In this document: piece after piece, positions 18,146 through 64,000 of the stretch
Numbering within the stretch: position 1 is the stretch's first letter
How the letters are laid out: the number at the start of each line of letters is the position of its first letter
From: Nitrospirota bacterium
Lineage (GTDB): Bacteria; Nitrospirota; Thermodesulfovibrionia; Thermodesulfovibrionales; JdFR-88
Direction of reading: 5' to 3'
DNA length: 64,000 nt
Assembly: GCA_014874185.1 (NCBI GenBank)
Contig: JACWAF010000035.1
Location: 124,001-188,000 of the forward strand
Translations under genes and position numbers: made by a program
Notes under the pieces: generated by a model
The model's database searches: none
What the model was told of the DNA's origin: nothing
What the model saw: the letters and a program-made list of their open reading frames with translations, nothing else

Positions 18146-18188
18146 ACGGAGGGGAACTCCATTTAAAATGAAATAACTGCTCATTAAA

Positions 18189-18331
18189 ATCCCTCCTAAC
18201 CTCCCTTTTCCAAAGGGAGGGATTTGCCCCTTTTTAAAACTCCGACTGCTCTGCATAAGGATGCACTCCTAACCTCCCTTTTCCAAAGGGAGGGATTTGC
18301 CCCTCTTTGGAAAAGAGGGGATGGGGGAGAT
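18189..18331. repeat. C-run/G-run palindromic repeats
   Basis: Two copies of CCTAACCTCCCTTTTCCAAA followed by GGGAGGGATTTGCCCC occur at about 18195 and 18269. The second is followed by a further CCCCTCTTT/AAAGAGGGG unit. The rest of 18111-18485 holds the ku promoter and AT-rich sequence with no gene. Confidence 0.75.
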
Positions 18332-18485
18332 TTCCCGGTCAAAAAATGCCGGATCGGGAGATGGGCTGAGCCATAAGTCATATATTTTACAGCTAATCTT
18401 ATAGATATATAAATCTTCCAAATTGGACAGGGTTGTTTCCATCCTCTACAGTGATAAAACCTATTCTTATCGCGGGAGAGGACTT

Positions 18486-18845: not shown

Positions 18846-19052
18846 CGGACTGGAAAAAGGCAATTTGATTTATAATAATCTCCGGTTTATAGGATTTATG
18901 TTGAAGAAATAAGCAAATCTTTTTATAATCAGAACTTTAAAAGATAAGTATTGATGATTTTTTGATAAGTTTTTTTAATTTGATTCAAAACTTAGGCATA
19001 TATTAGGCTTATATACTTTTCGCTCGAAACCATCGCAAGAAGGAGGATACAC

Positions 19053-20274: not shown

Positions 20275-21366
20275 ATGGCTTGGCTAACCGAGCAAGAGGC
20301 AAAAGCAAAGAGGAAGACCGATATAGGCCCGCCTCATTATTCGAAGATGCTCCCGCCCGTTATCTCGAAAAATTACGGGAAATGGAAATACCATGAGGTC
20401 TTTACCCCCGGCACCATGGTCCATGTGGCCGAATCCGGCGACAAGGTTTATACCGTCAGGGTGGCCTCGCCGAGAATCCTTGCCACGGAATCCATTCGCG
20501 CCATGCTCGACATCGCGGATAAGTACTGCGATGGCTATATCCGCTGGACCACACGCAATAACGTCGAGTTCATGACCACCAGGGAAGAGAATGTCCCTCT
20601 GATAAAGAAGGCCGCCGAGGACGCCGGCTATCCGGCGGGCGGCATCGGGTCAGGGCTTTCCAATATGGTGCACACGCAGGGCTGGGTGCACTGCCATAGC
20701 GCGGCAGCCGACGCCTCCGGCCTTGTCAAGGCCATCATGGACGAGGTCTATCCCTATTTTACCGAGAAGAAGCTTCCGGCAAAGACCAGGCTGGCACTCG
20801 CCTGCTGCGTCAACATGTGCGGCGCGGTGCATTGCTCCGACCTGGCCGTCGTGGCCATCCACAGGAAGGTCCCCGAGATAAACCACGACCTCGTAAAGAA
20901 CATGTGCGAGATCCCGACCACGATCGGCGCCTGCCCCACAAGGGCCATCAGCCCCGATCCGGCCAAGAAGTCCGTCAAGATCAACCCGGACAAGTGCATG
21001 TACTGCGGCAACTGCTTCACAGTATGCCCGCCGATAGACATCCACAGGCCGGAAGAGGACGGCGTGGCCATAGTGGTGGGCGGCAAAGTCGGCTCGCTCA
21101 GGAAGGGCCCGATGTTCTCCAAGCTGGCGATACCGTACATAAAGAACAACCCGCCCAGGTGGCCCGAGGTTGTCAGCGCGGTGAAGAACATCCTCGAAAC
21201 CTATGCCAATGACGCCAGGAAGCACGAGAGAATAGGCGAGTGGATAGACAGGATCGGCTGGGAGTCCTTCTTCAAGAAGACCGGCATCGAGTTCACATAT
21301 CAGCACATCGACGACTTCACGTTCGCAAGGGACACGTTCAGGACATCGGCCGCGTTCAAATGGTAA
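20275..21366 (+). CDS. dsrB: Dissimilatory sulfite reductase beta subunit
   Basis: DsrB carries the catalytic sirohaem of the sulfite reductase. The 363 residues contain the ligand block [16 protein letters not shown], the motif [16 protein letters not shown] and a ferredoxin cluster [33 protein letters not shown] and [14 protein letters not shown] complete the family pattern. It follows dsrA after 34 nt with AAGGAGG, and the two are one transcript that ends at a strong hairpin. The DsrC substrate carrier and DsrMKJOP complex are not in this window. Confidence 0.97.
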
Positions 21367-47839: not shown

Positions 47840-49372
47840 TTAAAAATATCGGGAAATACCCAGGGTAAAAAGGTTTATATCCAGATCTCCCCGCGGGGTA
47901 TCGCTTATTTTTCCAAAAGTGTATTCCCCGTTCAAGCTGATATTCTTTTTGGTATATAGATAAATGCCCAATGTGGCTGCGTTTTGAATGGGTTGCGGAC
48001 TGCCGGATAGATTATGTTTCTCCCTGTCGTATGAGAGATAAATTCTGCCTTGAATCTCAGGGACCATGTAGTCGGCTTTCAGGAAAAGGTCGTTTGAATC
48101 CGTACCCATATGATGGCCTATTATTAATCCCTTATCAGCAGGATATGTATAACCGGTTAAAAAAATATGATGCGTGTACCAGGCATTCGGATATCCGGTA
48201 ACGTGATCGTTTGCATATTCGGCCCTGAAATCAATCCTATTAAAATTTAAAATTCTTGGCAGGTAAACACCTGTTAACCCGGCCCATTTGCACGGGTATA
48301 TGCCGCACTGATCTTCGCCATCCGCCTCAAGATACATTTGTACAGGCTGAAAGCTGAAAGGCAAGGTCACTTTAATATCCCCACCAGCCCTTTGGTCTCC
48401 GGCCTCTTCTCCGGCTACGTTTTCTCCCTGTCCGGTGAAACTGTTCCACCATGTCCCGAGGCTTTCCGAGCGGCCTTGGCCCCCCAAAATGGCGGTTCGC
48501 TCAAGCCCGATTTCCAAATACGAGACCGGTTTCAAATCGAAGCGCAGCCCCCATAAGTAAGGGTTCGGCGGGACGCTGTCACTCCCGAGCCGGGTGACAA
48601 AAAAAGTGAACTTGGAAAGCCCCAGATATTTAAATATCCAAGGGAGGATAGCGGGATGGTCGTTTGTGAGCTTTATCATCGTGAATGGTTCGGCATTATT
48701 TGAAAGAAGAATTGCCCCATTGTAACCCGGCCCCCACCATTGCGAGTCCTTGCCAATCTGGAGGTCAAGCCCTAGGGCGCTGAGTACCCCGTATATTCTT
48801 TTCAAAGTTAGCCGGGAACTGCCGGAGTATCTGTATTCGGGATTAATATAGAAGGAAAACCATCCCAGATCGGCTAAGGAAACTGACCCAAGGCGAAAAT
48901 TAGAGTTCTTCTTGTAAATGTCACCGTTATTGTTGTACACGAATCCATTTGGATTGGCCGCTCTGCTGTAATTTAACCCATTTTCACTCGGGTTGGCCGT
49001 AGCGTAAACAAAACGCGTATATACCTCATCCAGCGGTCTTATATATTTCACTTTCCCCTGTTGATCTTCAAAGCGTTCTTCTTTAAAGCGTTCTTTCAGC
49101 AATTGAATGTCCTGTTCGTCCTCCTTACTTAAATGACTCTCTCTTTTGGCATTCCATTCAGCTTCCCGGATCAGTCTCCTCATCTCTTCACGACTGATGG
49201 GGAGGGTGTCAAGCAGACCACTCTTGATAAGTCCCTCAGCTTCGAGGCGAAAAAGCAGGTTGTAAGCATCATCGCCTACAGGCACATAAGTTGAAGCGAC
49301 AACTTCGGAAGGGACAACGTAAATAAGGCAAATAATTACGATAATTAATCGAAATCTTCGAGCCAATACCAT
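47840..49372 (-). CDS. Wzi-family capsule assembly outer-membrane protein
   Basis: The 510-residue protein has a signal peptide (cleavage near EVVAS) and the Wzi pattern: VPVGDDAYNLLFRLEAEGLI, a helical region with ISREEMRRLIREAEWN, then barrel strands such as GLDLQIGKDSQWWGPGYNGA and ILLSNNAEPFTMIKLTND, ending with an aromatic residue (ISRYF). Wzi proteins help attach polysaccharide to the surface. It starts at ATG 49372 behind AGGA. It is divergent from the EPS gene cluster downstream and marks its edge. Confidence 0.85.
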   Translation of the reverse strand: MVLARRFRLIIVIICLIYVVPSEVVASTYVPVGDDAYNLLFRLEAEGLIKSGLLDTLPISREEMRRLIREAEWNAKRESHLSKEDEQDIQLLKERFKEERFEDQQGKVKYIRPLDEVYTRFVYATANPSENGLNYSRAANPNGFVYNNNGDIYKKNSNFRLGSVSLADLGWFSFYINPEYRYSGSSRLTLKRIYGVLSALGLDLQIGKDSQWWGPGYNGAILLSNNAEPFTMIKLTNDHPAILPWIFKYLGLSKFTFFVTRLGSDSVPPNPYLWGLRFDLKPVSYLEIGLERTAILGGQGRSESLGTWWNSFTGQGENVAGEEAGDQRAGGDIKVTLPFSFQPVQMYLEADGEDQCGIYPCKWAGLTGVYLPRILNFNRIDFRAEYANDHVTGYPNAWYTHHIFLTGYTYPADKGLIIGHHMGTDSNDLFLKADYMVPEIQGRIYLSYDREKHNLSGSPQPIQNAATLGIYLYTKKNISLNGEYTFGKISDTPRGDLDINLFTLGISRYF

Positions 49373-49887: not shown

Positions 49888-51087
49888 ATGTCAAAGAAAT
49901 GCACGGGTCTCATTATCATCTCAATTGCCTTGCTCTTGTTGTCTGGGTGCGCCACATATAGTGACCTGAAGCCCGGCACTGTCAGGGACATAAGGGGAAA
50001 GCAGGGCATGACCTCAGGGCCGGCAGTGAAAGAAGAGAAAAGCGTGGAATGGCGGGACTGGACCCTCTATTTCTTCAAAAAAAGAATCGTCACTCATGCA
50101 GCTCCGCAGGGCAACTCTTCCATTGTCGAGCGGCAAACGGTAACAGTGCCTTTTGCAAAGGAGCCGCCGCCATCTCCCGATTATATCGTCGGTCCGAATG
50201 ATGTCCTCTTCATCAATGTGAACGGCAATCCGCAGTTTTCGAGCGCATTCGGGGGGACCATAGGAAGTTATGTTGCCGGCGGCGCCTCTGCAGGTTACAG
50301 TTCGAAGTCGCTGCTCGGGAGCCGGGTGGACGGGAGCGGGAATATCCAGGTACCATTCATCGGGGTGGTGAAGGTGGGGGGCATGACCCTGACCGAGATC
50401 CAGAACCGCCTCGAGGGACTTTTCCGCAAGTACCTGAAAAAGCCGTGGGTCGTCGTGGAGATCGTGGACTATAAGAGCCATCCGCTCTACCTTTTGGGGG
50501 AGTTCAGAAATTCAGGAACCGTTTATATGGACCGGCCCATGGACCTTTTGCAGGGAATGGCCCTCGGAAACGGCTATGATTCCGCAGCCAACCTTGCCGG
50601 CGCGCGCCTCATCAGGGACAATAAAATCGTTCCCATAGACATCTATTCTCTGCTAACCGAAGGTGACCTGCGCCAGAACATCTGGCTGAAGCCGGGGGAC
50701 ACCATCTTCATACCGGACAATAAGAACCAGCAGGTCTTCGTATTCGGCGCCGTGAAAAAGCCGGGTCCTGTTCCGATACCCCCGGCCGGGCTCACCCTTG
50801 CGCAGGCGATCGGAAACTCCGATTTACGCGACACGGGTTACGATATCCATCATGTCCGCATCATCCGTTCGCTCTCGGCCACACACGGCGAGTTGATAGT
50901 CGTGGACTTCGACAAGATACTCCGGGGCGAGGCCCTTCCTCTTCCCCTTAAGGACGGGGATATCATCTATGTCCCAAAAAGCGGCATAGGGAACTGGGAC
51001 GATGCTATCGCCGAGATGTTACCTTCGCTTCAGGCGATCAGTGCGAGCCTGCAGCCCTTTGTCGATATAAAATTTTTGACGCGCTAA
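49888..51087 (+). CDS. Polysaccharide export lipoprotein, Wza-like
   Basis: Outer-membrane export channel of the OPX family. The 399 residues start with a lipoprotein signal (LLLLSGCATYSDL). The polysaccharide export domain (about 100-190: SPDYIVGPNDVLFINVNGNP, GNIQVPFIGVVKVGGMTLTE) is followed by SLBB domains (PLYLLGEFRNSGTVYMDRP; VFVFGAVKKPGPVPIPPAG). A glycine/serine-rich insertion interrupts the export domain (YVAGGASAGYSSK). The start is ATG 49888 behind AGAGGGTG. First intact gene of the EPS operon, 10 nt before the Wzc-like kinase. Confidence 0.92.
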   Translation: MSKKCTGLIIISIALLLLSGCATYSDLKPGTVRDIRGKQGMTSGPAVKEEKSVEWRDWTLYFFKKRIVTHAAPQGNSSIVERQTVTVPFAKEPPPSPDYIVGPNDVLFINVNGNPQFSSAFGGTIGSYVAGGASAGYSSKSLLGSRVDGSGNIQVPFIGVVKVGGMTLTEIQNRLEGLFRKYLKKPWVVVEIVDYKSHPLYLLGEFRNSGTVYMDRPMDLLQGMALGNGYDSAANLAGARLIRDNKIVPIDIYSLLTEGDLRQNIWLKPGDTIFIPDNKNQQVFVFGAVKKPGPVPIPPAGLTLAQAIGNSDLRDTGYDIHHVRIIRSLSATHGELIVVDFDKILRGEALPLPLKDGDIIYVPKSGIGNWDDAIAEMLPSLQAISASLQPFVDIKFLTR

Positions 51088-51097: not shown

Positions 51098-53485
51098 ATG
51101 GATAATTCGCAAGAGACGATCATTCACGAAGATGAAATTGATATACGGGAATACTTCAACGTCCTGGTGCGCCGCAGGAAGATATTTTTTATTGTGTTCG
51201 GAGTGGTTTTCCTGGGGGTTGCCCTTTATACCTTTCACATGAAGCCGGTCTACCAGGCCACGGCGAGCTTCCACGTTGAAAATGAAAAGGAGACCGGGGG
51301 TATTATCCAGGACCTCCTGCTCAGTCAGGAAGATCCGGTCGAGACAGAGATGGAGATCATTCAATCGCGCTCGAATGCCGAAAAGGTGGTCAGGAGAGTC
51401 CATCTGGACTGGGGGATCTCCAAGAAGTCCGACGGCCTCGATGTCAAGGTGCTCGACTTCTCGACTGAAAAGAAACCCGGCCGAAAACCTGTCTATAGTG
51501 TAGAGCTTGCCGGAAGCCAGGGCTACAAGGTGTTTGACGACAATGGAAACCTTGTCGGCCGGGGAAAGAGCGGCGAGCTTATGCAGGGCAAGGGAGTCAA
51601 TCTCCTCATTAATGTGATGCATGGCAAGCCGGGGGACAGCTTCCGCCTGACCTTACATAACTTCAGCGACACAGTCGAAAAATTCAGGAAGGACTTGAAC
51701 GTTAAGCAGGCCGGAAATAATTCGGACATCGTAGATGTCTCATATCCGAACACCAATCCCGAACTTGCGAGGGAGACGTTAAATGCACTGCTTGGGGTAT
51801 ACATTTCCCAGAACATCAGCTTCAAGAACGCCGAGGGGCTCAAGACCGTGGACTTTATCGATAACCAGCTGAACGGTGTGCGCAAGGAATTGGATAAAGC
51901 GGAAAAAAACCTCAAGGATTACAAGAGCTCGGTCCACCTTGTGGACCTCAGCGCCGAGGGCCAGCAGCTTGTCACCACGATCGCCGCGGCTGAGACACAG
52001 CGGGACGCTGCGGACCTCCGCAGGAAACAGCTGCAATTCGCCATAGCCGCCCTGAAGGACTCGATCCGGAGCGGAAAAGTCTATTCCCCGTCGGTGGCGC
52101 TGGATGACCCTGTGGTAGCGGAAATGGCCGGAAAACTCGCCGACCTTGAGACACAGAAACGCGGGCTCGCCACGGTATACACGGAAAACTATCCTGATGT
52201 GCGCGCTGTCGAGGAGCAGATCGGCGAGCTGCAGCAGAAGATCCTCAATACGTACGAAACAGCCCTGAATAATATCTCAAAGAACGAGGCGGGCGCCACG
52301 CAGCTCCTGAATACCTACCAGGGCAAAATGAGTCAACTGCCCGAGACGGAGCGGCAGCTGGCAAAGCTCATGCGCGATGACAACGCCGCGGCCAACACCT
52401 ATACATTCCTGCTTCAGCAGGGCGAGCAGGCCAGGATCGCGGCGGCCTCGACCCTTGGGAATATAAACATCATAGACCCTGCCAAGACAGCTGAAAAACC
52501 GATAAAACCGAAGAAGGCGCTTTACCTTCTGCTGGGATTCATACTTGCGTCAATGTGGGGTGCGATATTGGCCTTCACTGCCGAGTATATCGATGACACG
52601 ATTAAAGATGCTGATACCGCGAAAAGGATGTTCGGCACCCCTCTCCTTGCCATGATACCATACCTCTACGGCGACGACGGTAAGCGGGACAATGGGAGGA
52701 AGGCGCTTGAGCTTGCAAGGGAGCGATCGCTGGTCGTCCACCATGAGCCGAAATCACAGGCAGCGGAGACTTTCAGAAGCCTGAGGACCGCCGTCCACTT
52801 TGCCGCGATCAACCGCAAGCAGCAACAGCAGGTATTTACGATCACGAGCACCTTCTCGGGAGAGGGCAAGAGCACAGTCTCCTCGAACCTTGCAACGATA
52901 ATAGCACAGACCGGCAGCCGGACAGTCATCATAGACTGCGACCTGCGGCGGCCGTTTCTCCATGAGATATTCGGATGCGACAAGGTCCCGGGAATCAGCG
53001 ATGTGCTCGCAGGAGACAGGGATATCGACGGGGTAATCCGCAATACCGGTGTATCGGGGCTCGATTTCATCAGCGCCGGCACCATTCCCCCGAATCCGGC
53101 TGAACTCATCGGGTCGGAGCCCATGACCAGGCTTATCGACATCCTCAGGGAGAGGTATGACCATGTGATCATTGACACGCCTCCGGTGCTGGCTGTGACG
53201 GATGCCCCGCTGCTCACAGCGGCCTCGAATATGGTGATACTTGTTGCTGCTGTCGGCAAAGTGCCCGCCAAGGCTGCCCTGCGGGTGAGGGAAGTGCTTG
53301 ATAACGTCGGAGCGTTGGTCATAGGGGTGGTAATGAACAATAAAACAACGGCGAGCGGAAAAGGTTACGGCTACGGCTATGGCTACGGATATAATTATTA
53401 CAACTATTACGGAGAAAAAGACCAGACTGAAAAGGAAAGGCGGCCATGGTGGAAACGCATCCTGAATCGGTGGCGGAAGGGCTGA
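51098..53485 (+). CDS. Polysaccharide co-polymerase / BY-kinase, Wzc-like
   Basis: It sets chain length and couples export to tyrosine autophosphorylation. The 795 residues have a Wzz-type N-terminus with membrane segments near 28-48 and 472-495, periplasmic coiled coils between them (VRKELDKAEKNLKDYKSSVH), and a C-terminal kinase. The kinase shows Walker A in TFSGEGKSTVSSN (near 587), the second Walker motif VIIDCDLRRPFLHEIFG and Walker B HVIIDTPPVLAVTD. A Tyr-rich tail (GYGYGYGYGYNYYNYYG) near 750-770 is the phosphorylation cluster. The CpsB phosphatase gene follows 4 nt later. Confidence 0.94.
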   Translation: MDNSQETIIHEDEIDIREYFNVLVRRRKIFFIVFGVVFLGVALYTFHMKPVYQATASFHVENEKETGGIIQDLLLSQEDPVETEMEIIQSRSNAEKVVRRVHLDWGISKKSDGLDVKVLDFSTEKKPGRKPVYSVELAGSQGYKVFDDNGNLVGRGKSGELMQGKGVNLLINVMHGKPGDSFRLTLHNFSDTVEKFRKDLNVKQAGNNSDIVDVSYPNTNPELARETLNALLGVYISQNISFKNAEGLKTVDFIDNQLNGVRKELDKAEKNLKDYKSSVHLVDLSAEGQQLVTTIAAAETQRDAADLRRKQLQFAIAALKDSIRSGKVYSPSVALDDPVVAEMAGKLADLETQKRGLATVYTENYPDVRAVEEQIGELQQKILNTYETALNNISKNEAGATQLLNTYQGKMSQLPETERQLAKLMRDDNAAANTYTFLLQQGEQARIAAASTLGNINIIDPAKTAEKPIKPKKALYLLLGFILASMWGAILAFTAEYIDDTIKDADTAKRMFGTPLLAMIPYLYGDDGKRDNGRKALELARERSLVVHHEPKSQAAETFRSLRTAVHFAAINRKQQQQVFTITSTFSGEGKSTVSSNLATIIAQTGSRTVIIDCDLRRPFLHEIFGCDKVPGISDVLAGDRDIDGVIRNTGVSGLDFISAGTIPPNPAELIGSEPMTRLIDILRERYDHVIIDTPPVLAVTDAPLLTAASNMVILVAAVGKVPAKAALRVREVLDNVGALVIGVVMNNKTTASGKGYGYGYGYGYNYYNYYGEKDQTEKERRPWWKRILNRWRKG

Positions 53486-53489
53486 TAGC

Positions 53490-54383
53490 ATGATTGATTG
53501 TCACTGTCATCTGCTGCCCGGGCTGGATGACGGATCCAAGACGATTGCCGAGTCCGTGGAGATGGCGCGCATACTTGCCGGCACCGGATTCACGGAAGTG
53601 TACTGCACCCCTCACATGATAAAGGGCGCCTTCGACAACGGTGATGCCAAGCGGCTGAAGCTGGCTGTTCTTGCGCTGCAGAAGGAAATCGACAAGTTCT
53701 CTATTCCGTTGAGGCTGCACCCCGGACTGGAATATTACATGGACGAATTTCTTGCATCTTTGCTCGATGAACCGCTTACCTTTGCCGGGTCCGGACTCCT
53801 GATGATCGAGGCGCCTGCCCGCGCGACTTCGTCTCTGGTGAAGGAAGGCATTTATCAGGTGGTGCGCCGGGGATATACTCCTCTGCTGGTTCATGTCGAG
53901 AGGTATGAGTTTGTCGGTCCGCTTCCTGATAGAGAAGCCGTGAAACTGAAAAACAAGAGGGGTTTTATTAACGCCTTGCATTCCCGGTTTGCGCCCGGCT
54001 GGAAGACAGCGGCAATGGAACATATGTCGGCGGGCAGCGAACGGGAGGGATTGAATGTCGAACAACTGCGGGCCATGGGATGCCTTTTTCAGGGTAATCT
54101 CGGCAGCTTTGCCGGCATTTATGGCGATAGGATCAGGGAGAGAGCGGTTCGCTATCTCGAACGCGGACTATACAGTCGTGTGGCCTCCGATGCCCATCAT
54201 TCCGAAGGTCTTGCCGAGTGGCTTTACCGAGGACTGGAGACCGTCAGAAACATAGTGGGCGATGAGGGGCTGAAGACGTTGACCGGGAATTACCCGGTCG
54301 GCGAGTTCTCTCTTGTTTGCAAGCAGCTGCGATCCGCGGAGCTAACGGCGGTAGCGCGGCCGGGGCTTATTACCAAAGAATGA
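53490..54383 (+). CDS. Tyrosine-protein phosphatase CpsB/CapC type (PHP fold)
   Basis: It removes phosphate from the Wzc-like kinase tail. The 297 residues carry the metal-binding motifs of the PHP family: MIDCHCHLLPGLDDGSKTI, VYCTPHM, LRLHPGLEYYMDEF, LVHVERYEFVG and ASDAHHSEG. This manganese-dependent type is unrelated to low-molecular-weight phosphatases. It lies directly after the kinase gene, as in capsule loci of Gram-positive bacteria. Confidence 0.92.
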   Translation: MIDCHCHLLPGLDDGSKTIAESVEMARILAGTGFTEVYCTPHMIKGAFDNGDAKRLKLAVLALQKEIDKFSIPLRLHPGLEYYMDEFLASLLDEPLTFAGSGLLMIEAPARATSSLVKEGIYQVVRRGYTPLLVHVERYEFVGPLPDREAVKLKNKRGFINALHSRFAPGWKTAAMEHMSAGSEREGLNVEQLRAMGCLFQGNLGSFAGIYGDRIRERAVRYLERGLYSRVASDAHHSEGLAEWLYRGLETVRNIVGDEGLKTLTGNYPVGEFSLVCKQLRSAELTAVARPGLITKE

Positions 54384-54436
54384 TTCATCGCTGTTAATAT
54401 TTGCCAGTAAAAGGGAAGGGGGGGAGGCGACTTCTT

Positions 54437-56263
54437 ATGTGTGGAATCATAGGATACACTGGCAGGGGCGATGCCATTCCGTTGGTCTTGGAAGGGCTTA
54501 AGCGGCTGGAATACAGGGGATATGACTCCGCAGGGATTGCATTCTTCTACGAAGGGTCCATAAAGGTGAGAAGGTGCAAAGGAAAGGTAAATGACCTTGC
54601 CGGCCTTTTCGCGGATGAAAAACCCGTCAGCAGGGCGGCCATAGGGCATACCCGTTGGGCTACCCACGGCAAGCCGTCGGAGAAGAATTCGCATCCCCAC
54701 AGGTCCGGGGGCATCGTGGTCGTCCATAACGGCATAATCGAGAACCATGCGGAATTGAAAAGAAGTCTTGTCGCTGAGGGATACGTGTTTCTGTCGGATA
54801 CGGATACCGAAGTTCTTTGCCATCTTATTCACAAACATATTAACGGCGTCCCTCTGGAGGATTCGGTGAGAAAGGCGCTCGAGGGTGTGAGAGGCGCCTA
54901 TGCCATTGCGGTGATCGATGAAAGGGAAGAGGGCAAGATTGTAGGAGTGAAAAAGGACAGTCCTCTCTGTGTCGGCATTGGAGACGGTGAATATTTTATT
55001 GCCTCGGATGTGCCCGCGTTCCTGAATTATTCAAAAAAGGTGATCTTCCTCGACGACGGAGAGATGGTTGTTCTGACCGGGGATGGCGTTTCAGTGACCA
55101 CGATCGATGGCTCGCCTGTTGACAAACAGGTGACAAACATCGGCTGGAGTCCGGCAATGGCTGAAAAAGGCGGGTACAGGCACTTTATGCTGAAAGAAAT
55201 CCATGAACAGCCGGCTGCGCTCGCTGACACGCTGAGGGGAAGGTTCGACCTCGAAAGCGGGGCCGTAAATTTGAAGGAATTCGGCCTTGAAGAAGATGAT
55301 TTGAAGACCGTAGAAAAGGTGGTTATCGTTGCATGCGGCACTTCGTGGCATGCTGCGCTCGTGGGCAAGTACATAATAGAGGACATTGCAAGGGTGCCGG
55401 TCGAGGTCGATATCGCCTCCGAGTTCAGGTACAGAAATCCCATACTCCGAAAGGGCGATCTGTTTATCTCCATTTCCCAGTCGGGGGAGACTGCCGATAC
55501 CCTTGCCGCCCAGAGGGAGGCCAAACGACTGGCCGCGAAGGTTATGAGTATCTGCAATGTCGTCGGCAGTTCGGCGGCCAGGGAGGCTGATGCCCTGTTT
55601 TACACACGCTCCGGGCCCGAGATAGGCGTGGCATCGACAAAGGCATTCACCACCCAGCTTGTGGGGCTTTATCTGTTTGCTGTCGCACTGGGTTCGGCGA
55701 AGTCCGCTGTGAGTGCGGATAAGGCTCGTCAGCTGCTGCAGGATCTTCTTGAGATGCCTGATAAGGTTGAACAGCTCCTCTCAACAGCCGAGGTTGCGGA
55801 AAAAATCGCCCGGGAGCTGTATGAGGCCCCTGGGTTCCTTTACCTCGGAAGGGGTATCAATTACCCTATAGCGCTTGAAGGGGCCCTGAAATTGAAAGAG
55901 ATCAGCTATATCCATGCGGAGGGTTATCCGGCAGGGGAAATGAAGCACGGACCTATAGCGCTCGTCGACGAGAAGGTCCCGGCGGTCGTTCTGGCGCCCA
56001 AAGGCCCGATGCACTACAAGATTGCCTCGAACATACAGGAAGTAAAAAGCAGGGGGGGGACGATAGTGTCGTTGGTCCATGCGGATGACGATTTGGTCCC
56101 CGGTCTCTCGGATTATTGCTTTGCGGTCCCGGATTCGAATCCCTACCTCGCGCCGGTGCTGTTCGTGGTGCCGCTGCAGCTCATCGCATATCACATCGGT
56201 GTGTTGCGCGGTTGCGATGTCGATCAGCCGAGAAACCTGGCAAAGAGTGTTACCGTTGAATAA
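54437..56263 (+). CDS. glmS: Glutamine-fructose-6-phosphate aminotransferase
   Basis: GlmS makes glucosamine 6-phosphate, the entry to UDP-GlcNAc. I start at ATG 54437 (608 residues) behind GGGGAGG so that Cys follows the initiator Met, as required for the glutaminase (CGIIGYTGRGDAIPLVLEGL). The first half ends near 230; two SIS domains follow with ACGTSWHAALVGKYIIED, ISQSGETADTLAAQREAK and the C-terminal signature DQPRNLAKSVTVE. Being in an EPS operon, it may be a dedicated second copy; I cannot see the rest of the genome. Confidence 0.95.
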   Translation: MCGIIGYTGRGDAIPLVLEGLKRLEYRGYDSAGIAFFYEGSIKVRRCKGKVNDLAGLFADEKPVSRAAIGHTRWATHGKPSEKNSHPHRSGGIVVVHNGIIENHAELKRSLVAEGYVFLSDTDTEVLCHLIHKHINGVPLEDSVRKALEGVRGAYAIAVIDEREEGKIVGVKKDSPLCVGIGDGEYFIASDVPAFLNYSKKVIFLDDGEMVVLTGDGVSVTTIDGSPVDKQVTNIGWSPAMAEKGGYRHFMLKEIHEQPAALADTLRGRFDLESGAVNLKEFGLEEDDLKTVEKVVIVACGTSWHAALVGKYIIEDIARVPVEVDIASEFRYRNPILRKGDLFISISQSGETADTLAAQREAKRLAAKVMSICNVVGSSAAREADALFYTRSGPEIGVASTKAFTTQLVGLYLFAVALGSAKSAVSADKARQLLQDLLEMPDKVEQLLSTAEVAEKIARELYEAPGFLYLGRGINYPIALEGALKLKEISYIHAEGYPAGEMKHGPIALVDEKVPAVVLAPKGPMHYKIASNIQEVKSRGGTIVSLVHADDDLVPGLSDYCFAVPDSNPYLAPVLFVVPLQLIAYHIGVLRGCDVDQPRNLAKSVTVE

Positions 56264-56424
56264 TTACGCGGGTCAACTTTGTGGCATGTCGAAGGTAACG
56301 GTATCAGAGACCGCCCGCTTGTTATATGGAAACAAGTCGGAGTGCATATTCACTCACGTGGCCTTTCAACGATTTGGCGGGTCTCTTGCGTTTCTTATTT
56401 AACTTCAAATCGAAAGGACGGCTG

Positions 56425-57522
56425 ATGCATTTTTTCAAGAACAAACGAATACTTGTAACCGGCGCTTGCGGCACTATCGGGGCCGAATTGATTTTTCAGC
56501 TCCTTAGAAATGAGAGCGACCCCCCGGAAGAAGTCATCGGTCTGGACAACAACGAAAGCAGGCTTTTCTTCCTCGACGAACAGTACCTGTCGGATCCGCG
56601 TGCCCATTTTTACGTGGCCGACATTCAGGACAAGCAGGAGCTGCGGACCAAGATGAGGGGCATCGATATTGTCTTTCATGCGGCGGCCTTCAAACATGTC
56701 ATCCTCTGCGAGCGCTCGCCTGAGCAGGCGGTCAGTACGAATATCCGGGGTGTCCAGAACGTCATTACTGCCGCCAGTGAAAATGGTGTCGGGAGGGTCA
56801 TCTTCACCAGCTCCGACAAGGCAGTGAACCCCACTAATGTCATGGGCACTTCGAAACTCATGGGGGAAAGGCTTATGACCGCTGCCAACAGTAACAGGCG
56901 CGGCGACGGGACGATCTTCGCCTCCACCCGCTTCGGCAACGTCCTGGGGTCCCGCGGGTCTGTCATCCCTATTTTCCACAACCAGATAGCCAAAGGCGGA
57001 CCGGTCAGTCTCACGGACAGGGCGATGACCCGCTTCGTGATGAGCATCAGGGATGCCGTAAGACTGGTTATCGATTCCGTCAAACTCGCTCAAGGCGGCG
57101 AGGTGTTCATAACAAAAATGGCGGTCATTCGTATTGCCGACCTTGCCCGCGTCATGATCGAGGAACTCGCCCCCCGTTACGATCGCGACCCCGATAAGAT
57201 CGAGATCGTTGAAATCGGTACCAAACCCGGGGAAAAACTGTACGAAGAGCTGATGAGCCCGGAGGAGACCAGAAGGGCGGTGGAGCTTCAGGATTATTTC
57301 GCGGTCCTTCCCGCTTTCCGCGGTATTTACCATGACATCGATTACAGCTACCCCAGCCTCGTTTCATCCAAGGTGAGCAATCCTTATGTGTCGGCGGCTG
57401 AAAAGCCCCTGGCTATCGATGAATTGCGCGTGTTTCTCAAGGAGAGAAATCTGTTGGGAGATCCTGGAGAGGCAGTGGCCCATCGTTACTGGCCCGGCGA
57501 CAAGGAGGAGAAGTCGTCATGA
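56425..57522 (+). CDS. UDP-sugar 4,6-dehydratase/epimerase (CapD/FlaA1-PseB type)
   Basis: The 365 residues, from ATG 56425 behind AAAGGA, form a short-chain dehydrogenase fold: ILVTGACGTIGAELIFQLL, FHAAAFKHVILCERSPEQAV, SSDKAVNPTNVMGTSKLMGE, RFGNVLGSRGSVIPIFHNQI and LTDRAMTRFVMSIRDAVRLV. The block SDKAVNP...SK is typical of UDP-GlcNAc C4/C6 dehydratases and CapD. It has no membrane N-terminus, unlike the large CapD form. It probably makes a keto-deoxy sugar nucleotide from the GlmS-derived pool. It overlaps the next gene by 4 nt (ATGA). Confidence 0.88.
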   Translation: MHFFKNKRILVTGACGTIGAELIFQLLRNESDPPEEVIGLDNNESRLFFLDEQYLSDPRAHFYVADIQDKQELRTKMRGIDIVFHAAAFKHVILCERSPEQAVSTNIRGVQNVITAASENGVGRVIFTSSDKAVNPTNVMGTSKLMGERLMTAANSNRRGDGTIFASTRFGNVLGSRGSVIPIFHNQIAKGGPVSLTDRAMTRFVMSIRDAVRLVIDSVKLAQGGEVFITKMAVIRIADLARVMIEELAPRYDRDPDKIEIVEIGTKPGEKLYEELMSPEETRRAVELQDYFAVLPAFRGIYHDIDYSYPSLVSSKVSNPYVSAAEKPLAIDELRVFLKERNLLGDPGEAVAHRYWPGDKEEKSS

Positions 57523-58667
57523 GAATTTTGATATTGGGCGCGGACGGCTATCTCGGCTGGTCTACCTGCATGTACTTCTCCGGGAAGGGGCATGAGGTTG
57601 CCGGTATAGATAATTATTTCCGGAGAAACGCGGGCGTTGAGCTCGACTGCGAATCATTGATACCCGTTCCGAACCTTATTCAGCGCGCGAGGATATGGGA
57701 GGAGCTCAACGGAAAGAAGATCGGCGTACGTATCGGGGACATAACGGATTATGATTTTCTCCTTGAAGTATTCAGTGAATTCAGGCCGGATGCGGTCATA
57801 CACTATGCCGAGCAGCCTTCGGCGCCTTATTCCATGATAAGCAGAGACAAGGCAGCCTTTACAATCAGAAACAATCTCATGTCTACCCTCAATATCGTCT
57901 ATGCCGTAAGAGAGGTTAATCCGGACTGCCATATCGTAAAGCTCGGCACCATGGGAGAATACGGAACACCCAATATCGACATTGAGGAGGGATGGATCGA
58001 TATCGAGCATAAGGGCAGAAAGGACAGATTCCTCTTTCCCAGACAGGCAAGCTCCATCTATCACACCTCCAAGATACAGGACACGGACCTCCTATGGTTT
58101 TACGTCAGGACCTGGGGCATACGCGTGACAGACCTTATGCAGGGCCCTGTCTACGGGGTATCGACCAGTGAGTCCGACCTCGATCCGCGCCTCATGCCTA
58201 TCTTCAACTATGACGAGATATTCGGGACGGTGCTGAACAGGTTTATCGTGCAGGCGGTGGCCGGGTATCCCCTGACGGTCTACGGCAGAGGAGGACAGAT
58301 AAGGGGGTACCTCAATATAAGAGATACCATGCAGTGCGTGTATCTGGCGGCCGCAAATCCGGCTTCACGGGGGGAACTGCGCGTCTTCAACCAGGTGACG
58401 GAAACCTTTTCCGTAAACGAGCTTGCAGAGCGGGTGCAGCGGGCGGGAAAAGGGCTTGGTTATGACGTTAGGGTAAAAGAGATCGAAAATCCGAGGGTGG
58501 AAAAGGAAGATCACTATTATAATCCGAAATATACCGGACTTCTTGAACTCGGCCTTAAGCCCCATTACCTCACCGACGATGTCCTTCACGGCATGTTCAA
58601 GGTCGTCGAGCAGTACAAGGACGAGATAAACAGGGACGCGATTTTTAGAGGAGTGAGGTGGAAGTAA
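57519..58667 (+). CDS. UDP-sulfoquinovose synthase homologue (SQD1/Agl3 family)
   Basis: SQD1 makes UDP-sulfoquinovose from UDP-glucose and sulfite. The 382 residues match SQD1 over the whole length: ILILGADGYLGWSTCMYFSG, NYFRRNAGVELDCESLIPV, IHYAEQPSAPYSMISRDKA, IVKLGTMGEYGTPNIDIEEG, the catalytic Tyr/Lys in ASSIYHTSKIQDTDLL, TDLMQGPVYGVST, GGQIRGYLNIRDTMQCVYLA and VFNQVTETFSVNELA. The Thr of LGTMGEYG and the YxxxK pair are the family's catalytic residues. SQD1 normally serves sulfolipid synthesis in plastids and cyanobacteria, and Agl3 the S-layer glycans of Sulfolobus. Here it lies in an EPS operon, so the sulfonated sugar is probably placed in a surface polysaccharide. Confidence 0.88.
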   Translation: MRILILGADGYLGWSTCMYFSGKGHEVAGIDNYFRRNAGVELDCESLIPVPNLIQRARIWEELNGKKIGVRIGDITDYDFLLEVFSEFRPDAVIHYAEQPSAPYSMISRDKAAFTIRNNLMSTLNIVYAVREVNPDCHIVKLGTMGEYGTPNIDIEEGWIDIEHKGRKDRFLFPRQASSIYHTSKIQDTDLLWFYVRTWGIRVTDLMQGPVYGVSTSESDLDPRLMPIFNYDEIFGTVLNRFIVQAVAGYPLTVYGRGGQIRGYLNIRDTMQCVYLAAANPASRGELRVFNQVTETFSVNELAERVQRAGKGLGYDVRVKEIENPRVEKEDHYYNPKYTGLLELGLKPHYLTDDVLHGMFKVVEQYKDEINRDAIFRGVRWK

Positions 58668-58687
58668 ACGTGAAACGTGAGGCGAAA

Positions 58688-59779
58688 ATGGAACGCAATT
58701 ATTTGATCACCGGCGGTTGCGGCTTTATCGGCACGAGTTTGATAGCCCATCTGCTGAAGCAGAACCCTGACACAAGAATTCGCGTATTGGATAATTTGAC
58801 AGTCGGCACCCGCGAGGATTTAGCCGGAGTCTGCGACTTTATAGAGTTAGACGTAAAAGGTAAAACTTTAGACGATGCAAACCGTTTTAAAAACGACTCA
58901 AGTGATGCTGGTACCGACGTTTCGCATCTTACGTCTCACATCTCTCGCAGCGTTGAGCTAATCGCAGGCGATATCCGGGACTACGATATTTGCGCGAAAT
59001 GTTGCGAGGGAACAGACGTAGTAGTCCATCTTGCCGCAAACACCGGGGTAGGTCCTTCAGTCGAGAATCCCAGGGCGGATATGGAGTCGAATGTCATCGG
59101 CATATTCAATATGCTTGAGGCATCGAGACAGCAGGGCGTGGAGAGCTTCGTCTTTGCATCTTCAGGAGCGCCCATTGGCGAAGTTGAGCCCCCTATACAC
59201 GAGGAGAAGGCGCCAAGACCGGTTTCACCCTATGGGGCAAGCAAGCTGGCCGGAGAGGGATATTGCTCCGCCTATTACAGGACGTTCGGCCTGAAGACCG
59301 TCGCCCTCCGGTTTGGCAATGTCTACGGCCCGAGGTCAAAGCATAAAAGCAGCGTTGTCGCGAAGTTTTTCAAGCAGGCCCTTGCGGGAGAGACCCTTGA
59401 GATTTACGGCGACGGCAATCAAACAAGAGATTTTATTTACATTGATGACCTGATCCAGGCGATCTGCTTAGCAGTTAATCCTAAGCCGGCATCTCAGTCC
59501 TCAGCACTTGGCACTCAGTCCTCTTGTTATTACGGCGAGGTCTTTCAGATCGCCACTCATAAAGAGACGACCGTTAACGAGATTGCGACAATGATTAAGG
59601 ATATCCTAAGGAAAGAAGCAGGGCTGGATGTAAGGATTGCATATGGCGAATCGAGGCTTGGAGATGTTAAAAGGAATTATTCGGATATCTCGAAGGCCAA
59701 GAGGATGCTCGGTTATGAGCCAAACTATGATCTTAACAGAGGGCTAAGAGAGACATTTGAGTACTTTGGGGCTGCATAG
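58688..59779 (+). CDS. NAD-dependent sugar-nucleotide epimerase/dehydratase
   Basis: I start at ATG 58688 (363 residues). An in-frame GTG at 58658 would read through ACGTGAAACGTGAGG repeat sequence. The fold is GalE-like: NYLITGGCGFIGTSLIAHLL, VHLAANTGVGPSVENPRADM, FASSGAPIGEVEPP, the catalytic SPYGASKLAGEGYCSAY, ALRFGNVYGPRSKHKS and DGNQTRDFIYIDDLIQAICL. Two insertions are encoded by short repeats: one near residues 76-88 (58917-58952) and one near 269-279 (59493-59523). They sit in loops and do not break the frame. The exact sugar is unknown. The codon choice is less GC-rich than in the upstream EPS genes. Confidence 0.88.
   Translation: MERNYLITGGCGFIGTSLIAHLLKQNPDTRIRVLDNLTVGTREDLAGVCDFIELDVKGKTLDDANRFKNDSSDAGTDVSHLTSHISRSVELIAGDIRDYDICAKCCEGTDVVVHLAANTGVGPSVENPRADMESNVIGIFNMLEASRQQGVESFVFASSGAPIGEVEPPIHEEKAPRPVSPYGASKLAGEGYCSAYYRTFGLKTVALRFGNVYGPRSKHKSSVVAKFFKQALAGETLEIYGDGNQTRDFIYIDDLIQAICLAVNPKPASQSSALGTQSSCYYGEVFQIATHKETTVNEIATMIKDILRKEAGLDVRIAYGESRLGDVKRNYSDISKAKRMLGYEPNYDLNRGLRETFEYFGAA
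58917..58952. repeat. In-frame microrepeat inside the epimerase gene (1)
   Basis: ACGTTTCGCATCTTACGTC followed by TCACATCTCTCGCAG is a tandem-like string of a TCACGTTTCACGT-type unit. The same unit, reversed, lies at the gene's 5' end (58668-58686). It is translated in frame as about 12 residues. Confidence 0.6.
59493..59523. repeat. In-frame microrepeat inside the epimerase gene (2)
   Basis: CTCAGTCCTCAGCACTTGGC followed by ACTCAGTCCTC is a tandem of CTCAG/ACTCAG units translated in frame as SQSSALGTQSS. Confidence 0.6.
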
Positions 59780-59842: not shown

Positions 59843-59956
59843 ATGAATCATAACCACGTAATATGGCATATGGCAAAGAGATCTTATGAACTCCCATTTT
59901 GTAGTGAGGTGGAGCTAAGGAACGGGGAGAATGAAAAGCTTGCGAAACAATCATGA
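59843..59956 (+). CDS. Possible small protein, 37 residues
   Basis: An ATG at 59843 stands behind GGGGGGAGATAA, an unusually strong ribosome-binding site for this gap. The frame encodes MNHNHVIWHMAKRSYELPF, then CSEVELRNGENEKLAKQS, and its TGA overlaps the ATG of the next gene (ATGA at 59953). These signals suggest a real leader peptide or small gene coupled to the downstream protein. No family is recognisable and it could be a fragment of a lost gene. Confidence 0.4.
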   Translation: MNHNHVIWHMAKRSYELPFCSEVELRNGENEKLAKQS

Positions 59957-61701
59957 ATAGGCTAATTGCGATGTATTGCTTTGTGAAAAGGGACATTGCG
60001 CGCGTGGCGTATTCTTTTTTCCTGCTTGCCGGGATGATCTTGGCGATATTGTCTCCTCTCCCTGCAGAAGCATCGCAGATAACAGGCAGCAGCGATGGCC
60101 TGAAGGTGTACCATGTTGAGCCGTTCGATTTCGTTTACCCTACAACAGTATTCAAAGAATCGCCGATAAACGGCATATCCCTGGCGATGGCGAGGAATGA
60201 ATACGAGCCGGTGACCTTTGCTGTCATTTCGTCGCGGGACTATCATAATGTTACTTTGCAGGTCGAAGAGCCTGCTGATGCGAATGGTCATCATATCAGG
60301 AGAAACAATATCGACGTGAGAGTCGTCAAGGTATGGAGACAGTCAGGAACTTCGACGTTGCCGGGGAGGGAGGTCCTCGTTCCCGAGTTGCTCATGAAAG
60401 ACGATACTGTGCCGATAGTGGATTCATTTGAGAATGGCCGTTACGTACCTCCTTCGTTGCCATCGGCTTTCCGGACGGCTTTTCACGCCGGACAGGTCAA
60501 ACAGATCTGGATAACTGTTCACACGACGGTCTCCGAGAACCCTGCCGGTCTTTACAATGGAAAGATAAAGCTGCTTTCAGAAGGCAGGGTCATAAAGGCG
60601 ATAGGAATGGCCGTCAGGGTACTGCCGATTACGCTTCCGGGTCCTTCAAAGAGGTACTGCATATATTTTAGAGGAAGAATCGAGCCGAGTCATGAAGAGT
60701 ATCTGGACAAAGCCCTTTATATGAAGGAAGTGAAGGATATCAGAGAACATGGCTTCGATGGTATAACGATTTACGACGAGAAGTTTGACCAGATTGCCGA
60801 GGGCATCGATAGAGCGGCAGCTGCCGGGCTGAAATATGTTGTCGTCATCGGCTTCGGCCCCGCGAGGCCCGAAATAGTGAATCGGATTATTCAGCACGCA
60901 AGGGCGAAAGGGATGGGAATCTATTTCTACGGTGCGGACGAGCCTAATAATGACGAAAGGCTCATGTCTCATATCAGGAAATCGAAGATAATTCATGAGG
61001 GCGGCGGGAAGGTCGTCACTGCCATTACCAGGGCGCGCTATGTGGTGCTGATGGACAGGAGAAGTAGGATTTATGAAAAACTTCCAGGGACATACGAGCC
61101 GCTCGATTGGGCCAATTATCATTTGAAGGCATCCATCAATTATATCGACGGGTTGGTCAGAGGGGTGAATGCAAAAGGCAGCAACCTAGAGACATATTAT
61201 TGGCAGATAAGCCAGGAGAACCCGATCATGCACCGTCTGTATTCGGGCTATTATCTTTGGAGGACCGGTCTTGACGGCGTTTTCCCTTACTGCTATCAGT
61301 CGTATTCTCCGGTTTCACCTTATAACGGCGGCGACAAGTTTTGGCGGAAGAACAGGTATGCGAGGGTTTTGGACACCACCTACCCATCCATGGAAGGGCC
61401 TGTCCCCACATTGCAGTGGGAGGCGATTAGGGCTGGGATTAACGACGTCAGATATCTCACTCTGCTTGCCTCTCTTTCCCCGTCGGGAAGATTGCCCGGC
61501 TCGATTGAAAAGATCCTCACTGGATTCGGTTACATCGGCTTTGATAATGACGGGGCCGAGGCTTACAGGGGAAGTAAATTCAGTTTCGCCAGAGAGAGGA
61601 TAATCGATGCGATAATGCGGGCTCAAGAGAGTCGTGCAAAGTCCGGCAGCCCGGCCAAACACTTCGCCCCTCAAGCGAAAAGGCAGTTGCCGGTAAAATG
61701 A
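59953..61701 (+). CDS. Secreted DUF4091/GH123-like protein in the EPS locus
   Basis: The 582-residue protein begins with a membrane or signal segment (SFFLLAGMILAILSPLPAEA). A beta-rich N-terminal domain (GISLAMARNEYEPVTFAVIS; PAGLYNGKIKLLSEGRVI) precedes a barrel with FYGADEPNNDERLMSHIRKS, YYWQISQENPIMHRLYSGYY and TLQWEAIRAGINDVRYLTLL. This matches the DUF4091/glycoside hydrolase 123-like group; Asp-Glu in GADEP are candidates for catalysis. It probably trims or modifies the polysaccharide in the periplasm. The gene starts at ATG 59953, overlapping a possible 37-codon ORF. Confidence 0.72.
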   Translation: MNRLIAMYCFVKRDIARVAYSFFLLAGMILAILSPLPAEASQITGSSDGLKVYHVEPFDFVYPTTVFKESPINGISLAMARNEYEPVTFAVISSRDYHNVTLQVEEPADANGHHIRRNNIDVRVVKVWRQSGTSTLPGREVLVPELLMKDDTVPIVDSFENGRYVPPSLPSAFRTAFHAGQVKQIWITVHTTVSENPAGLYNGKIKLLSEGRVIKAIGMAVRVLPITLPGPSKRYCIYFRGRIEPSHEEYLDKALYMKEVKDIREHGFDGITIYDEKFDQIAEGIDRAAAAGLKYVVVIGFGPARPEIVNRIIQHARAKGMGIYFYGADEPNNDERLMSHIRKSKIIHEGGGKVVTAITRARYVVLMDRRSRIYEKLPGTYEPLDWANYHLKASINYIDGLVRGVNAKGSNLETYYWQISQENPIMHRLYSGYYLWRTGLDGVFPYCYQSYSPVSPYNGGDKFWRKNRYARVLDTTYPSMEGPVPTLQWEAIRAGINDVRYLTLLASLSPSGRLPGSIEKILTGFGYIGFDNDGAEAYRGSKFSFARERIIDAIMRAQESRAKSGSPAKHFAPQAKRQLPVK

Positions 61702-61728: not shown

Positions 61729-63075
61729 ATGGAACAAAAGCTCTCGGTTACTCCGACAAAACATGACATTGCGAATAAGGGGCTGACGATGGTGGTCGGC
61801 ACAGTTTCAACCGCTGTTATGAGTATGCTTCAAGGTATCATAATATCGAGGGTCCTCGGTCCTGCTGGAACAGGTCAATACCAACTGTCGGTTACGCTGT
61901 CGATAACATTGATCACCTTTTTTTCCCTTGGGATGGGACTTGCGAATATCTATTTTTTAAATCACCATAAGATTAATCCGAAACAAATAGTAATGAACAG
62001 TCTCGCGGTAGGGCTCTTTCTCGGTCTTTTTTCCTCCTTAACAATATTCTATTTTTTTACCTTCAAGAAGAATTATGCAGGTGCGTTAGGTCCTTGGGCG
62101 AAGATAATCTTTTCATCCGGCCTGTGTTTCATGGTGTTGCAAGTCTTCATGACGCAGATATTGATCGCGAAAATGAAAGTCCGTCAATATATTGCCGTGG
62201 GAATCGTCTCGTCCTTCGTAAATCTCTTTCTTTGTGCCTTGTTGGGTGCGCTCGGGCTACTCAGTCCCGGGGCAGCGCTTATTATCTATTCTTTGTATCA
62301 AATTACCATGGCGACTCTGTCGTTATATTTTTTGAGAGAGGACATTTCCTTTGCGTATGCGCCGGATTTCAGATTGATATGGCGTACCTTTAAATACGGG
62401 CTCCAGCTTTATGTCGCAAATCTCCTCCTAACGCTGGATCAGAATATCAGCCTCCTCATGATTGGCTTTCTTATGCCCGGACAATTCGACGCCGCCGGAT
62501 ATTATTCGCGGGCCGTGACCCTATGCGGACTCATTCGTCTGCTGCCGACGGCCATGACGAACCTCCTTTATTCCCATTGGGCGGCTGTGCAAGGGCAGGA
62601 GCGGACAAGGCAGGTGGAAAGGGTAATCCGTATTTATCTACTGTTCGGCGTGGCCTTTGTCATCACGCTGATCCTGGCTGGGAAGTATTTGATGATAGTT
62701 ATGTACGGGCGGGCGTTTCTTCCTGCTGTCATCCCGCTCCAGATACTTGGGTTCCAACAGACAATGTGGATGATATCCAATGTTTTCCAGGCGCTTTTCG
62801 CAGGTTCCGGAAAACCTACGCTGACGACGGTCAATATCGGCGGCGGCAACATGGTAAGCTTGGCAGGATCCTTTGTTCTTATACCGGTGTTGGGAATTGT
62901 CGGGGCTGCTATAGCTCTGACCTGCGGACAGGCGGTTTACACGTTTCTTAACCTGCTCCAGGCAAGAAAGTACTTCGGCCTCAACTTCAGGAATTGCCTG
63001 GCGTTTAACCGACAGGACTTGACATATTTTCTAAGCGCCATGCGACGCAGAAAGAAATCGACGGTGCTCAGTTGA
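61729..63075 (+). CDS. Polysaccharide flippase, Wzx (MATE/MVF fold)
   Basis: The 448-residue membrane protein has about 12 hydrophobic segments. The N-terminus MLQGIIISRVLGPAGTGQYQ and the last half (AAGYYSRAVTLCGLIRLLPT, FQALFAGSGKPTLTTVNIG, GIVGAAIALTCGQAVY) match the polysaccharide transporter family. It would move undecaprenyl-linked repeat units across the inner membrane. Its stop codon overlaps the TTG start of the following ligase/polymerase gene by 3 nt. It has lower GC content than the genes upstream. Confidence 0.9.
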   Translation: MEQKLSVTPTKHDIANKGLTMVVGTVSTAVMSMLQGIIISRVLGPAGTGQYQLSVTLSITLITFFSLGMGLANIYFLNHHKINPKQIVMNSLAVGLFLGLFSSLTIFYFFTFKKNYAGALGPWAKIIFSSGLCFMVLQVFMTQILIAKMKVRQYIAVGIVSSFVNLFLCALLGALGLLSPGAALIIYSLYQITMATLSLYFLREDISFAYAPDFRLIWRTFKYGLQLYVANLLLTLDQNISLLMIGFLMPGQFDAAGYYSRAVTLCGLIRLLPTAMTNLLYSHWAAVQGQERTRQVERVIRIYLLFGVAFVITLILAGKYLMIVMYGRAFLPAVIPLQILGFQQTMWMISNVFQALFAGSGKPTLTTVNIGGGNMVSLAGSFVLIPVLGIVGAAIALTCGQAVYTFLNLLQARKYFGLNFRNCLAFNRQDLTYFLSAMRRRKKSTVLS

Positions 63076-64000
63076 GTAAGAGAGGTCTCCACAAGTTACT
63101 CGCAGCCGTTGTAACAGCCGCGGTTGGAGCCTTGCTCTGTTGGCTCAATATTTACATCTTTATTTTTTTCCTGTCAGCCGCGGCCCTTGTCGTTCTGACG
63201 AGGCGCCCGGATTATTGTGCTTATCTTCTTCTCCTTGCCATGCCGCTTGACAGCTCATCGGGCGCCGGCCAGAACAATCCTGTAGGATTTCCCATAACAA
63301 ACGCCGTTATTGTCTTTTCGCTGATACTCGTTTTAATGACATACCTGATGCGCCCATCATATTTCCCGATAAAATGGTCTCGTTCGACCAAGATAATGCT
63401 GGCAGCAATCTTTTTTCTCACGGCCGCTCAACTTGAGAGTGTATTCGGTGCCTTTGACTTCGATTCGACCATTCGCCTGACAATAACAATCGCAAGCATG
63501 GGGTTGCAAACCTTGCTTTTTTTCGTTCTTGTTAAGGATGAGACTGTCTTGAGACGTGTGTTTACTTTTTTTCTGATATTAGCCGTCGCTATCTCTATAT
63601 TGAATGTCCTGACCGCCTTCCAGATTATCCCGCCGATCCTGGAAAGGCTCTCGGCGAGCAGAGAGTTGGGGAACTACAAAGTGCCTTTCAAGGGTGCTGC
63701 CGTATTGTTCGGCGGAAGGGGAACTTACGGTATTTTCATGCACGGGATTTTACCTATGGCCCTGCTTGCTCTCATGAAGGGCCCCACGAGGTTTGCCAAC
63801 TGGAGAAGGATATACACGGTGCCGGCGGTTATCGCGATATTGGCGGGTCTTGTTGTTACCCAATCCCGCAGCGCGTGGCTGGGTACCTTATTTATTCTGT
63901 TTTTCATGTCCCTTTTCTACCTGAATAATATGAGGATATCGAGAAAGATCATCTTTGCTGTCGGTGTGGCTGCAACCCTTTTCCTCTATCTGCTGCTGGC
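63072..64000 (+). CDS. O-antigen ligase/Wzy-type polymerase, 3' end outside window
   Basis: The frame opens at TTG 63072 (overlapping the flippase stop, TTGAGTAAG) and stays open to the window end, giving 309 complete codons. Several hydrophobic segments are seen (LLAAVVTAAVGALLCWLNIY; IFIFFLSAAALVVL). The large extracellular loop region and the motif VVTQSRSAWLGTLFI near residue 260 are typical of the Wzy_C domain of ligases and polymerases. With the flippase it forms the assembly part of a Wzx/Wzy-type pathway. The product is cut off, so polymerase versus ligase cannot be decided. Confidence 0.82.
   Translation, partial: MSKRGLHKLLAAVVTAAVGALLCWLNIYIFIFFLSAAALVVLTRRPDYCAYLLLLAMPLDSSSGAGQNNPVGFPITNAVIVFSLILVLMTYLMRPSYFPIKWSRSTKIMLAAIFFLTAAQLESVFGAFDFDSTIRLTITIASMGLQTLLFFVLVKDETVLRRVFTFFLILAVAISILNVLTAFQIIPPILERLSASRELGNYKVPFKGAAVLFGGRGTYGIFMHGILPMALLALMKGPTRFANWRRIYTVPAVIAILAGLVVTQSRSAWLGTLFILFFMSLFYLNNMRISRKIIFAVGVAATLFLYLLL

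Follow-up and report, generated by a model that had tools for sequence, protein, structure and literature searches.

The main known occurrences of sulfoquinovose are in photosynthetic membranes and in some archaeal glycans. The described enzymes that serve here as references are SQD1 of Arabidopsis, the bacterial SqdB, and Agl3 of Sulfolobus acidocaldarius. All three keep an arginine at position 101 (the Agl3 residue being taken from the primers in PMC4388408); the R101A mutant of Agl3 is inactive, and Glu147 and Tyr148 of this enzyme have been proposed to act in dehydration (PMC4388408). With regard to nucleotide-sugar dehydratases, the chemistry of Pen is that of a 5,6-dehydratase, and PglF has a methionine at the position of Pen's tyrosine (PMC8987622).

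The DNA considered here (the window, a stretch of 64,000 nucleotides from a Nitrospirota bacterium) carries an SQD1-like short-chain dehydrogenase/reductase (SDR) gene, the single one of its genome (2.43 Mb, 42 contigs, 100% complete), within a polysaccharide locus (Table 1). The explanation that is favored, and that is held to be fairly likely, is that its product would act alongside a cassette-encoded PseB/Pen-like dehydratase, optionally joined by a 4-epimerase. It would add sulfite to C6 of a UDP-hexose, giving UDP-sulfoquinovose or a close sulfonated analogue, and the sulfonated sugar would enter an exopolysaccharide or capsule assembled by the Wzx/Wzy route.

Table 1. Features of the window, in order of position.
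Feature	Position	Strand	Basis or remark
dsrA	19053..20240	+	context only, outside operon
dsrB	20275..21366	+	context only, outside operon
Wzi, capsule assembly protein, divergent	47840..49372	-	domain match
Wza, polysaccharide export	49888..51087	+	family/domain matches
Wzc, chain-length determinant / tyrosine autokinase	51098..53485	+	family/domain matches
CpsB/CapC-type protein (phosphotyrosine phosphatase family)	53490..54383	+	family/domain matches
GlmS, glutamine-fructose-6-phosphate transaminase (UDP-GlcNAc supply)	54401..56263	+	above NCBIfam cut-off
PseB/Pen/CapE-like nucleotide-sugar dehydratase (Polysacc_synt_2), near-obligatory partner	56326..57522	+	Asp164-Lys165; Met173 for SDR tyrosine
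SQD1-like SDR, Pro-type (Pro100 for Arg101), putative UDP-hexose C6-sulfonate synthase	57519..58667	+	profile, PDB sequence, tree, fold-model matches
UDP-sugar 4-epimerase-like SDR (SSG...YGASK), partner common to Arg-type SqdB loci	58658..59779	+	family matches, tree
582-aa protein	59953..61701	+	sub-threshold GH123 N-domain match only
Wzx flippase	61729..63075	+	Polysacc_synt match
Wzy polymerase / O-antigen ligase family	63072..64000	+	runs past window end

The SQD1-like open reading frame is complete (382 aa); the dehydratase gene upstream runs 4 bases into it, and the epimerase gene starts before its end. Top PDB sequence matches are SQD1 structures (1qrr/1i24; 475 bits, residues 2-382), the second-ranked family reaching only 37 bits, and the AlphaFold model finds SQD1 as its top fold match (TM 0.97, 53% identity). 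The match to SQD1 over the entire length that an earlier note on this DNA had claimed is thus borne out, and full-length homology and the predicted fold identify the gene as a genuine SQD1-type relative. The NCBIfam profile UDPsulfquin_syn (NF041015) also aligns along the whole length, at 469.7 bits (E 7e-141), which falls under its curated equivalog cut-off of 575 bits. A phage homologue was looked for, and none was found.

The catalytic Thr, Tyr, and Lys, likewise named in the earlier note, are present as Thr144, Tyr181, and Lys185 (SQD1 Thr145, Tyr182, and Lys186). The GxxGxxG cofactor motif lies at G7-G10-G13, and His95, Met145, Glu147, and Tyr148, residues shown to matter in Agl3, are kept, whereas Arg101 of SQD1 and Agl3 is replaced by Pro100. 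In an alignment of 110 homologues, this position is proline in 104 and arginine in six, the six being SqdB-type sequences 60-63% identical to S. meliloti SqdB. Nine further positions separate the main Pro clade from the Arg-type enzymes, while HYYN, a C-terminal motif of SQD1, is retained. As the arginine essential in Agl3 is a proline across the whole clade, UDP-sulfoquinovose is a product that we infer. A plain reading as UDP-sulfoquinovose synthase is weakened by the loss of Arg101 and by the score under the equivalog cut-off, and on both counts this name is better withheld; judged by its context, the Pro-type enzyme probably works like such a synthase.

Relatives of the gene amount to at least 590 confirmed matches, and the best 80 of these, whose loci were studied, come from Nitrospirota, Thermodesulfobacteriota, Myxococcota, Pseudomonadota, Bacteroidota, Chloroflexota, Planctomycetota, Actinomycetota, and other phyla, many of the source genomes being metagenome-assembled, where binning may err. 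In a tree built without full-length Agl3 and cyanobacterial SqdB, the window protein falls within the Pro clade (support 100/98), whereas an Arg clade (98/87) holds SQD1, a Pseudonocardia enzyme, and SqdB. Two more Pro lineages were found, one represented by L025 and one by L026-L028 together with a haloarchaeal sequence. Loci of the latter lineage (L145 and L126; motifs ExPSAPYSM and QGVVFGT) lie beside NeuB-like genes, recognized by eye from EIGNNH-type motifs, and L145 also carries the same epimerase as the cassette. Beyond its own family, the nearest kin of the window protein include Candidatus Jettenia, which argues for horizontal spread. Cultured organisms that bear the cassette include Desulfatibacillum alkenivorans (L048) and Histidinibacterium aquaticum (L054). 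One polysaccharide region (L121, G144:C51:8001-28000) holds both an Arg-type SqdB (3745-5121) and, on the same strand at a distance of about 11 kb, a Pro-type cassette (15696-18965).

The surroundings of the gene are those of a Wzx/Wzy-dependent locus: from the divergent Wzi to Wzy, the genes follow one another as listed in Table 1, with, as previously noted, the SQD1-like gene preceded by that of a sugar dehydratase and followed by that of an epimerase. Past the window lie genes for glycosyltransferases, a methyltransferase, FnlA-like, RmlD-like, DegT, 2-epimerase, and PseG-like proteins, and a phosphoglycosyl transferase, up to the end of the locus at C30:200157, ahead of ROK and LepA. Wza, Wzc, Wzx, Wzy, glycosyltransferases, and the phosphoglycosyl transferase are thus all present. 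The PseG-like hydrolase (L002:10342-11505, that is, C30:196342-197505, outside the window) scores above its NCBIfam cut-off and has no evident NeuB/PseI gene alongside. A supposed 314-aa gene (L002:131-1075) turned out to be the C-terminal end of Wzx, which is truncated at the border of the locus. The 582-aa protein matches no family above threshold, and none of the 80 other loci has a homologue of it. Between the window and its nearest relative (G386, L132), the order of Wzi, Wza, Wzc, the dehydratase (81%), and the SQD-like gene (87%) is conserved; GlmS, CpsB, the epimerase, and later genes differ, a variation that resembles that of serotype-like variable loci.

This setting bears on the polymer for which the sugar would be made. 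Some SQD1 homologues serve sulfolipid synthesis (SqdB/SqdX type), and the genome has about 20 GT4-type gene matches; the SQD1-like gene, on the other hand, is embedded in a complete Wzx/Wzy locus, it has no second copy, and the genome gave no match to the S. meliloti SqdD-position gene, a weak test run with no positive control. A sulfolipid role is, therefore, unlikely, to the point of being very hard to credit, and the earlier proposal of an exopolysaccharide or capsule in place of a membrane sulfolipid is supported. Classical Arg-type SqdB genes of two other Nitrospirota loci (L136, L138) also belong to, or lie close to, Wza/Wzc/CpsB polysaccharide loci, and SqdB should, therefore, not be read as a sulfolipid marker in this phylum. 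In the literature searched, no bacterial polysaccharide with sulfoquinovose was found, a point against the favored explanation.

The dehydratase is a near-obligatory, not an incidental, neighbor of the Pro-type gene. Counting the 58 Pro-type loci that extend 3 kb or more to either side, and taking as a homologue any protein at least 45% identical to the window's, the dehydratase occurs within 5 kb in 53, and in 44 it is directly adjacent on the same strand, in a gene order that varies and includes the reverse; three loci have no dehydratase partner. The epimerase is present in 30 of the 58, and no glycosyltransferase or other gene is conserved to a comparable degree in these loci. Members of the dehydratase subfamily are encoded in 20 of the 396 genomes from the phylum; 19 of these 20 carry a Pro-type gene, adjacent in 17 (Fisher p 3e-29), whereas none of 12 control Arg-type SqdB loci from the same phylum, several of them in Wza/Wzc/CpsB settings, has such a dehydratase within 5 kb (53/58 versus 0/12, p 6e-10), both p-values being optimistic because the loci are related by descent. 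The conserved unit is best read as a cassette found across phyla, mobile or horizontally spread, and the favored explanation draws support from Pro-type genes keeping the same partners across phyla. One locus (L146, G232:C50:30001-48000) has a cassette-type dehydratase without an SQD-like gene, in surroundings unlike a polysaccharide locus.

The dehydratase has as its top solved relative 6bwc (264 bits; named CapD in the PDB), which we take to be Pen of Bacillus thuringiensis, a UDP-GlcNAc 5,6-dehydratase, followed by CapE and FlaA1. It keeps the Asp-Lys acid/base pair (D164-K165) and the Polysacc_synt_2 domain of the Pen/CapE type, with Met173 where Pen has Tyr, as in 70 of 73 dehydratase homologues and in PglF. 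A pseudaminic acid role was considered and rejected, since DegT homologues occur in just 13 of the 80 loci and DegT is, therefore, not part of the cassette. The epimerase is nearest to GalE and to the UDP-GlcNAc/GalNAc 4-epimerases WbpP/WbgU. In its tree, where deep branches are weakly supported and the node uniting L139 and L128 has 98/91, the epimerases beside Arg-type SqdB (L139, L140), which share 63% identity with the window's, nest within those of the Pro type, among which the epimerase beside the third Pro lineage (L145) is also found. As the epimerase is common to both SQD types, the same class of product is suggested.

More specific products can be proposed, two of which are sub-cases of the favored explanation, so that confidences overlap. 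In one, dehydratase and Pro-type enzyme would act on UDP-GlcNAc to give a UDP-N-acetyl-6-sulfoquinovosamine-like sugar, which the epimerase could turn into the galacto form. The pairing of the dehydratase with the Pro type and not with SqdB, its UDP-GlcNAc-using solved relatives, GlmS lying directly upstream in the window, and the affinities of the epimerase are all consistent with this amino sugar; the retained HYYN motif, an epimerase common to Arg-type SqdB, which is expected to use UDP-Glc, and the lack of conservation of GlmS in the cassette make it somewhat unlikely. In the other sub-case, the Pro-type enzyme would have lost dehydration along with Arg101, and the PseB-like enzyme would supply a 4-keto-5,6-ene to which sulfite is added. 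Loss of the arginine and presence of the dehydratase do go together, and a Pen-like 5,6-dehydratase would yield such an unsaturated intermediate, but this division of labor is doubtful: Glu147 and Tyr148 are retained, three of the 58 loci lack the partner, and the handing of a reactive intermediate from enzyme to enzyme is unusual. It is also conceivable that the two enzymes make separate sugars, UDP-sulfoquinovose and a 6-deoxy-amino sugar, that meet in one conserved disaccharide of the polymer, as each of the two enzyme types is frequent in polysaccharide loci and CapE/FnlA-like enzymes produce 6-deoxy-amino sugars. A shared disaccharide should, however, need a glycosyltransferase, aminotransferase, or reductase conserved comparably with the pair, and none is, which leaves this option rather unlikely.

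Whether sulfite is used at all can be approached from genes for its supply. Of the 80 Pro-type loci (the best 80 of at least 590), 8 include CysH or CysDN on the strand of the SQD-like gene, CysH in five (52 bp downstream in L054) and CysDN in four; these 8 come from Chloroflexota, Bacteroidota, and Alpha- and Gammaproteobacteria. By chance, about 0.3-0.6 CysH would be expected in the 1.28 Mb, at an assumed one CysH per 2-4 Mb. An Arg-type SqdB on a Pelagovum plasmid also adjoins CysH. Some CysDN may feed sulfotransferases instead, and 72 of the 80 loci have neither CysH nor CysDN in the stretch examined. Sulfite use by the Pro-type enzyme is likely on this gene context. The earlier idea of SQD1-type fixation of sulfite onto UDP-glucose, thus, keeps its enzyme type and gains from the CysH/CysDN loci, but it loses the complete active site, Arg101 being absent. 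Were the Pro clade a plain dehydratase or epimerase, giving an ordinary or unsaturated sugar without sulfite addition, the lost arginine and the score under the cut-off would be accounted for; sulfite-supply genes in the loci of distant relatives and an epimerase common to Arg-type SqdB speak against this, and it is rather improbable. The favored explanation, a C6-sulfonated UDP-hexose, finds in CysH/CysDN and in the epimerase swapped between SQD types its two lines for a sulfonated product, and it is weakened by the Arg101 replacement, the nine other separating positions, the missed equivalog cut-off, and the 72 loci without supply genes.

In the window's own cell, sulfite is expected as an intermediate, since dsrA and dsrB lie in the window, as had been reported, and aprA elsewhere on the same contig. 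Within the phylum, dsrA scores above its cut-off in 20 of the 21 genomes that carry a Pro-type gene of at least 54% identity, versus 173 of 396 overall, a correlation confounded by descent, the dsr-less half of the phylum being largely a separate lineage. The suggested tie between dsr-based sulfite metabolism and the surface polymer did not hold up as a specific one: dsrAB lies about 36 kb from the SQD1-like gene, and the cassette is scattered over numerous phyla, some of its bearers belonging to groups for which dissimilatory sulfur metabolism is not known. It is present, for instance, in Saprospiraceae, Halomonas, and Rubrobacter. Dependence on dsr was, therefore, rejected.

As several hundred genomes (at least 590 matches) hold relatives, and many of these have the same partners in loci of the polysaccharide type, a pool of organic sulfonate could have been overlooked in bacterial exopolysaccharides and capsules. 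The polymers of cassette bearers would carry permanently charged sulfonates, which sulfatases should not remove. In its boldest form, the proposal is tentative: a widespread, horizontally spread cassette of a Pen-like dehydratase and an SQD1-like enzyme lacking the arginine, in some cases accompanied by a 4-epimerase, may supply surface polysaccharides with an undescribed sulfonated sugar (e.g., a C6-sulfonated N-acetylhexosamine) or with UDP-sulfoquinovose made by two enzymes. The Pro clade, as it lacks a residue thought essential, offers a direct test of the mechanism of SQD1-type enzymes.

Compared with known systems, the window protein shares with Arabidopsis SQD1 about 53% identity over the full length, the fold, the Thr/Tyr/Lys residues, and the GTMGEYGTP loop; it differs by its proline and by a polysaccharide locus with dehydratase and epimerase in place of a lipid setting. 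SqdB of the rhizobia/Rhodobacterales type (S. meliloti SqdB, Nitrospirota L029-L034) can have the same epimerase partner, and some copies likewise lie in exopolysaccharide loci of Nitrospirota, but this type keeps the arginine, lacks the dehydratase partner, and shares only about 40% identity with the Pro type. Pen (6bwc) and CapE/FnlA are the closest solved relatives of the partner dehydratase and have the Asp-Lys pair in common with it; the dehydratase differs from Pen by its methionine, and from all of them by standing, in the cassette, outside any conserved pseudaminate or FucNAc gene set. Agl3, which serves the sulfoquinovose of the S. acidocaldarius N-glycan, has the same loop motifs (read from the primers in PMC4388408) and provides the proposed parallel for use in a surface glycan, although it requires the arginine that the window protein has lost.
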